The notes under the pieces: model-generated | What the model was told of the DNA's origin: nothing | Databases searched by the model: none | Seen by the model: only the letters and a program-made list of their open reading frames with translations | Shown here: piece by piece, positions 15,579 through 16,873 of the stretch | Numbering within the stretch: the first letter of the stretch is position 1 | Layout: each line of letters starts with the position of its first letter | Program-made: the position numbers and the translations under genes | Assembly: GCA_002686955.1 (NCBI GenBank) | Contig: NYZA01000186.1 | Span: 1 to 24,660, forward strand | Length of the DNA stretch: 24,660 nucleotides | Reading direction: 5' to 3' | DNA from: Gemmatimonadota bacterium | GTDB lineage: Bacteria > GCA-2686955

Positions 15579-15606
15579 CGAGCTGGCGGATGAGAAAGGC
15601 CGAGCC

Positions 15607-15843
15607 ATGCGCGTGTCGATCAAGTACTGCGTCCAGTGAAATTACCTGCCCCGTGCCTCCAGTTTGGGGGCCGCCATTGCCCGCGAGATCGGGATCGAGG
15701 CGGAGCTCATCAAAGGAGATCGAGGGATCTTCGATGTGGCTGCCGACGGCAAGATCATCTACTCGAAGTATGAGAGCGGCGATTTCCCGCCGGACAATCT
15801 GATCATCGACCTCCTGCGCGAGCTACGCGAAGGGGGGCGGTAG
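15607..15843 (+). CDS. SelW/Rdx-family selenoprotein (CVQU motif, in-frame TGA = selenocysteine)
   Basis: Read with TGA at 15637-15639 as selenocysteine, this is a 78-residue protein. It begins MRVSIKYCVQ-Sec-NYLPRAS and continues LGAAIAREIGIEAELIKGD, RGIFDVAADGKIIYSKYES, then GDFPPDNLIIDLLREL, stopping at TAG 15841. This is the thioredoxin-like Rdx (SelW/SelT/SelH) family: YC-x-x-U/C redox motif on the first loop, NYxPRAxxL helix, GxFDVxxDGKxIYSK hairpin, and family length of 75-90 residues. In cysteine homologues the TGA position is Cys. Protein similarity continues in frame on both sides of the TGA, which a simple stop would not explain. The likely role is cytosolic thiol/peroxide redox chemistry; the partner is unknown. 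A hairpin suited to a bacterial SECIS lies right after the TGA. The genome must encode SelA, SelB, SelC and SelD. Confidence 0.87.
15637..15671 (+). promoter_or_regulatory. Candidate bacterial SECIS element
   Basis: Downstream of the TGA, GCCTCC (15655-15660) pairs with GGGGGC (15666-15671) around a five-base AGTTT loop. This makes a six-pair stem with one G-U. The loop G at 15662 is about 23 bases from the TGA, within the spacing of known bacterial SECIS hairpins, which need a G near the start of the apical loop. It lies inside the coding sequence, as bacterial SECIS elements do. It was folded by eye only. Confidence 0.5.
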
Positions 15844-15862: not shown

Positions 15863-16873
15863 ATGAGATTCACCAAGAGCTTCCAGATTGCCGCGCTCCT
15901 CTCGGCATCGGCGACCCGTGGCGCGTGGGCCGAGACCGGCGCCGACTCGGTCGGAGCCATCCCCCCTCCCGACTCATCCGCCATCGCGATCGCGCCACTC
16001 GGTACAGCCCTCACCGACACCGCGGCCACCGAAACCGTTCCGCGCGATGAGCGGCGGGCGGCGGCGTTGGCGGAGCTGGAAGATGCAGCCGAGGCAGATG
16101 CGCGTCCGATGGCGCTCTCGCTGCTCGACCACCCCGACGCGGCCCGGCGCGAGGCCGCCCTCACCTTTCTGCGCCGTTTCGAAGACCCCGCCGGTGCCGC
16201 CGACTCCTTGCTTCATGACCCCGACGCCAGCGTGCGCTTGGCGGCTCTCCGCGCGGCCGACGAGTGGAAGCGCGACGATCTGATTAGGCGAGCCCTGAGC
16301 GACACATCTCGGAGCGTGGTGAATGAGGCGATCGAAATCGTTCGTGAGAAGTCGATCGGGAGTGCCGCGATCGAGCTTCAGGCACTCGCTTTCGATCCCG
16401 AACGACCGGGCGCGCTGCGCACGAAGGCGATCGAGCTCCTGACCGAGCTCTCACAGATCCATATCATCCGCTTCTTGGCCGGCGCATCTGTCGAGGATCA
16501 GATACTTGAGATTGCACGCCTGCGTTGGGGCATCGCCCTGGCGGACGAGGTAAAGGTGTACCGATCGGTTCGATCGTTCCTCACGAATCTGATCGATGGG
16601 AAGGGGAACAGCGCCTACCTGCTTCTAACACCCGAGGCTCGCGAAGGCCTCACCCCCGACAAACTGACGCGATCGAGCTCCATTCGTTCCTTCCGCATCA
16701 GCTCGGTGAACCGCCTCGGGCCCGACGATTTCGAGGTTGATGTAAGAGTGATCGTCGAGAGCACGGGGGGGGAGCAGCTCTTCCTGCGCACCGACTATCT
16801 CGTTCTGGAGCGACGGGAAGGCCGTTTCCTGCTCAGGAGGAGGGTGCTCGGGGGCGCAGTCCCTCTGGGCTGA
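15863..16873 (+). CDS. Exported HEAT-repeat protein, function unknown
   Basis: The 336-residue protein has a probable signal peptide (MRFTKSFQIAALLSASATRG, then AWAE), then an alanine/proline/threonine-rich linker to about residue 60. HEAT-like helical repeats fill about 65-200 (LLDHPDAARREAALTFLRRF, LLHDPDASVRLAALRAADEW). The last 110 residues form a separate alpha/beta domain (SVRSFLTNLIDGKGNSAYLL ... VNRLGPDDFEVDVRVIVES) that resembles the SnoaL/NTF2-like or small export-associated folds. That resemblance is weak and I do not name a family. The gene starts 20 bases after the selenoprotein gene and may be co-transcribed with it. Its 3' end overlaps the convergent SprT-like gene by 41 bases. 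Confidence 0.68.
   Translation: MRFTKSFQIAALLSASATRGAWAETGADSVGAIPPPDSSAIAIAPLGTALTDTAATETVPRDERRAAALAELEDAAEADARPMALSLLDHPDAARREAALTFLRRFEDPAGAADSLLHDPDASVRLAALRAADEWKRDDLIRRALSDTSRSVVNEAIEIVREKSIGSAAIELQALAFDPERPGALRTKAIELLTELSQIHIIRFLAGASVEDQILEIARLRWGIALADEVKVYRSVRSFLTNLIDGKGNSAYLLLTPEAREGLTPDKLTRSSSIRSFRISSVNRLGPDDFEVDVRVIVESTGGEQLFLRTDYLVLERREGRFLLRRRVLGGAVPLG

Follow-up and report, generated by a model that had tools for sequence, protein, structure and literature searches.

The locus lies on a 24,660-nucleotide contig, analysed over its whole length (hereafter the window), from a Gemmatimonadota MAG (4.28-Mb, 270 contigs, 84.5% complete, 0.9% contamination). UGA is normally a stop signal. 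A sequence-only reading of the window had described an in-frame TGA at the redox position of a CxxU motif, with IKYC before it, NYLPRASSL after it and a stop 68 codons on; all of these are present, the TGA being codon 11 of a frame that ends with TAG at 15841-15843 (Table 1). Read through, the frame yields the product MRVSIKYCVQUNYLPRASSLGAAIAREIGIEAELIKGDRGIFDVAADGKIIYSKYESGDFPPDNLIIDLLRELREGGR, with the redox motif C8-V-Q-U11. Without read-through, the upstream part falls inside a 143-aa frame that starts with GTG, stops at the TGA and is mostly antisense to a GDSL-domain gene. Automatic annotation would be likely to miss or truncate the SelW-like gene. A HEAT-repeat gene follows on the same strand and is possibly co-transcribed with it. 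Elsewhere in the window, an Rfam group-II-D1D4-6 intron match occupies 2272-2527 (+, 74.8 bits), and a frame at the left edge (3-536, +), which has no Pfam match, resembles by eye a group II intron reverse transcriptase/maturase, specifically its C-terminal part.

Table 1. Features of the SelW-like locus, in window coordinates
Feature	Position	Strand	Basis or remark
Possible ribosome-binding site, purine-rich, contains AGAAAGG, 6 nt 5′ of the ATG	15591..15600	+	sequence inspection
Predicted Rdx/SelW-like selenoprotein gene, 78 aa, ATG at 15607, Sec at codon 11, TAG stop	15607..15843	+	read-through frame, family profiles, TGA orthologue
Cys codon of the CxxU motif (Cys8)	15628-15630	+	
In-frame TGA, almost certainly a Sec codon, closing the CxxU redox motif	15637..15639	+	TGA or Cys codon in the same column in homologues
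bSECIS-like hairpin, stem GCCUCCA/UGGGGGC, 7 bp	15655..15671	+	fold, homologue pairing, covariation
Hairpin loop GUU	15662-15664	+	22 nt between UGA and loop
HEAT-repeat protein gene, 19-nt gap downstream of the SelW-like gene	15863..16873	+	

With TGA translated as Sec, the product scored above the cut-offs of both Pfam Rdx (PF10262; 57.2 bits against 22.6, E 1.9e-15, profile positions 1-73 of 74) and TIGR02174 CXXU_selWTH (45.1 bits against 34.2), in agreement with the SelW/Rdx identity first proposed for it, and the Rdx family match spans residues 2 to 71, across the TGA. It fell below the threshold of the narrower equivalog NF041051 (SelTWH_Campy; 73.3 against a cut-off of 88). Matches to SelW-related proteins of solved structure were also found, among them 2fa8, in which the residue aligned with Sec is Cys. 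An AlphaFold prediction built from eight homologues, with Sec modelled as Cys, reached a mean pLDDT of 93.1 and places a strand at residues 3-8, then the CxxU loop and a helix at 14-28. Foldseek aligned the model to the SelW-related 2fa8 chain A with a TM of 0.90 and to mouse SelW (2npb) with 0.66; the top PDB matches are without exception bacterial SelW-related proteins, and human MIEN1, mouse SelW and thioredoxins come next. The model has a thioredoxin-like SelW fold, in which the Sec-bearing loop joins strand 1 to helix 1.

One reading in which such a frame would not be translated is that of a pseudogene, a former Cys-form Rdx gene with a nonsense mutation; TGT or TGC becomes TGA by one base change, and a single genome is insufficient to exclude this. 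A second genome of the phylum (G001), which also encodes SelA, carries a protein 61% identical with the same TGA, alongside genes related to the window's glgC, phosphoesterase, SprT-like, HEAT and MlaD-like genes. Past the TGA, the two genes differ at 15 first, 14 second and 38 third codon positions (pN 0.25, pS 0.74), and this low ratio and third-position excess indicate selection on the protein downstream; by this codon comparison, the sequence after the TGA is under purifying selection. Among 386 genomes sampled across bacteria, 67 had an Rdx match and 57 the TGA form, and SelA scored above its cut-off in 55 of these 57 as against 170 of the 386 overall (p=5e-20, with genomes treated as independent). 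In the homologue loci read, TGA always occupied the last CxxU position, and Cys was seen at this site in 12 homologues of greater divergence; a phage homologue was searched for and not found. A shared TGA followed by selected sequence, its recurrence across bacteria together with SelA, and the covariation of the hairpin described below make a pseudogene very improbable. Two assemblies with a TGA-form Rdx gene (G032, locus L047; G191, locus L089) have no SelA match, perhaps through missing contigs or perhaps because Sec is made another way there.

The sequence-only reading had also implied an active Sec-incorporation system, and sequence matches to all four of its components were found in the same assembly, on contigs other than the window's: SelA on C8 (498.7 bits), SelB on C119 (327 bits, or 359 counting a C-terminal match), a tRNA-Sec with UCA anticodon (selC) on C140 (76.9 bits) and SelD on C248 (322.6 bits). 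With Cys or Sec at the TGA position of homologues and sel genes in the assembly, neither of the outcomes named in that reading as refuting it was observed. The tetranucleotide profiles of these contigs correlate with that of the window at r 0.92-0.96, as compared with 0.91 between the window's own halves, and because of this resemblance misbinning of the sel contigs is unlikely. General reassignment of UGA, for example to Trp or Gly, would likewise produce in-frame TGA codons; against it, TGA ends 12 of the 20 window genes checked, the SelA and SelB frames contain no internal TGA, the TGA codons fall on Cys positions of redox motifs and a tRNA-Sec is present, leaving this explanation with a negligible share of the probability. 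Equally negligible is an accident of unrelated short frames flanking the TGA, or a sequencing error: GC-rich DNA abounds in short ORFs (the window has 115 mechanical ones of at least 80 aa), yet a single Rdx profile match in a single frame covers both sides of the TGA, and the separately assembled G001 carries the same codon. Pseudogene, code reassignment and chance were all rejected on the conservation of the TGA, the use of TGA as a stop elsewhere and the single-frame profile match.

Other genes of this assembly also contain in-frame TGA codons, bringing the UGA-containing redox or selenium genes in the genome to at least five. The SelD gene on C248 (L018, from about position 1489) is itself a selenoprotein gene, with its TGA in the motif GG-U-ARKLG (MNEPRLTTLVPAGG-U-ARKLG), and making SelD therefore needs the selenophosphate that SelD makes. 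Three AhpC-TSA/redoxin-like frames have TGA exactly at a UxxC active site, on contigs C66 (L120; ASW-U-PVC), C27 (L122; ANW-U-PIC) and C14 (L123; EYW-U-GSC). The C66 redoxin frame has a FlgD Ig-like domain after it and the C27 frame an Ig-like domain before it, and from these neighbours both proteins look surface-located or secreted; if they are exported, selenocysteine would occur outside the cytosol, which would merit attention. A CMD/AhpD-like frame (C34:6350-6577, L126) has one in-frame TGA within the matched stretch, which in a simple scan lies in neither a CxxU nor a UxxC motif, and the formate dehydrogenase-like frames of the genome have no in-frame TGA.

Shortly past the TGA of the SelW-like gene, the mRNA is predicted to form a hairpin (-12.4 kcal/mol) that satisfies, in position and loop sequence, the constraints of the published bSECIS model used for comparison (PMC13188914). 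Its single-sequence stability is no greater than that of shuffled sequences (z -0.29 to +0.85), and a loose bSECIS scan passed 117 of 144 random codons of genes in this GC-rich window (81%), so that a fit to the model is weak evidence when taken alone. Because a loose energy scan is unable to discriminate in GC-rich coding DNA, a comparative test was used. Across all 66 TGA homologues, a mean of 5.86 of the 7 pairs can form, as against 3.08 in the 12 Cys homologues, controls that come from a remoter branch of the family. Column shuffles of the same 66 sequences gave 5.35 ± 0.06, with the native value reached by none of 1000, and synonymous codon redraws gave 4.33 ± 0.11. In these alignments, pairing exceeds that expected from synonymous codon choice and is weaker in the Cys homologues.

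Covariation was scored in an alignment of 54 TGA homologues, giving 0.284 relative to 0.138 ± 0.012 in shuffled alignments (reached by 0 of 500), with stem partners pairing in 89% of cells compared with 23-52% for slid partners. This alignment (A2) is favourable to the structure, since it lacks 12 members of the full set, three shifted-register and several distant homologues among them; the test on all 66 agrees with its result. The G001 orthologue has the hairpin GCUUCCA-GGU-UGGAAGC, in which a C-G pair of the window is replaced by U-A. Four further loci (L047, L081, L084, L085) instead have GCUGCA-AGUU-UGCAGC or a variant that is shorter or has wobble pairs, paired by inspection, and keep a G within the first two loop positions. 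A tentative and rather doubtful extension is that one bSECIS module, specific to the family, is common to the Sec-form SelW genes of bacteria; its consensus would be GCCGCCA-GUY-UGGCGGC, at a constant distance of 22 nt, and would shift register (to GCUGCA-AGUU-UGCAGC) in a few lineages with the loop G kept. On that same reading, the RNA element would limit which residues the first helix of the protein can have.

The recoding set out below has strong support from sequence: coding is conserved on both sides of the UGA, Sec and Cys share one position in homologues, sel genes lie in the same assembly, the hairpin is conserved, and the predicted fold is that of SelW. In our view this is very probably the gene of a SelW-like selenoprotein of the Rdx family, a predicted CxxU oxidoreductase whose UGA SelB would decode with the help of the hairpin, and the UGA is almost certainly read as selenocysteine, as first proposed from the sequence and as borne out by homologues, sel genes and covariation. 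In the mechanism we infer, SelB carrying GTP and Sec-tRNA(Sec) would bind the small hairpin just 3′ of the UGA on the mRNA and deliver Sec at codon 11, whereupon translation would continue past the UGA. The product, probably cytosolic, would be a thioredoxin-like domain whose Cys8-x-x-Sec11 pair makes and breaks a selenenylsulfide bond, and would act as a small thiol/selenol oxidoreductase. The neighbouring genes are uninformative on its substrate because adjacent genes differ in G001, where the HEAT-repeat gene is not next to the SelW-like orthologue.

The SelW-like CxxU type is a well-established family of bacterial selenoproteins: marine GOS data contain 427 of them, more than of any other selenoprotein (PMC2398784), and Geobacter, Desulfotalea and Symbiobacterium are among the bacteria that have them (PMC1794560). 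The present gene enlarges that family by one member and extends Sec use, together with all of the sel machinery, to a phylum that has been little sampled; about the mechanism of Sec insertion, nothing new is learned from it.

Compared with known systems, the hairpin resembles the bacterial SECIS in lying within the coding sequence directly past the UGA, with a G-first 3-nt loop 22 nt after that codon (PMC13188914); no departure from the consensus model was found, and binding by SelB is predicted here. The protein shares with bacterial SelW-like selenoproteins (PF10262; TIGR02174) a CxxU close to the N-terminus, a length of about 75 residues and a thioredoxin-like fold, and its Sec form is the one prevalent among Sec-using bacteria (PMC1794560, PMC2398784); it shows no essential difference from them beyond a divergent sequence, which is about 50-60% identical to the closest ones found. 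Atu0228, the Cys-form SelW-related protein of known structure (PDB 2fa8), is alike in fold, and its CTQC motif aligns with the redox motif described here, but it has Cys where the present protein is predicted to have Sec.
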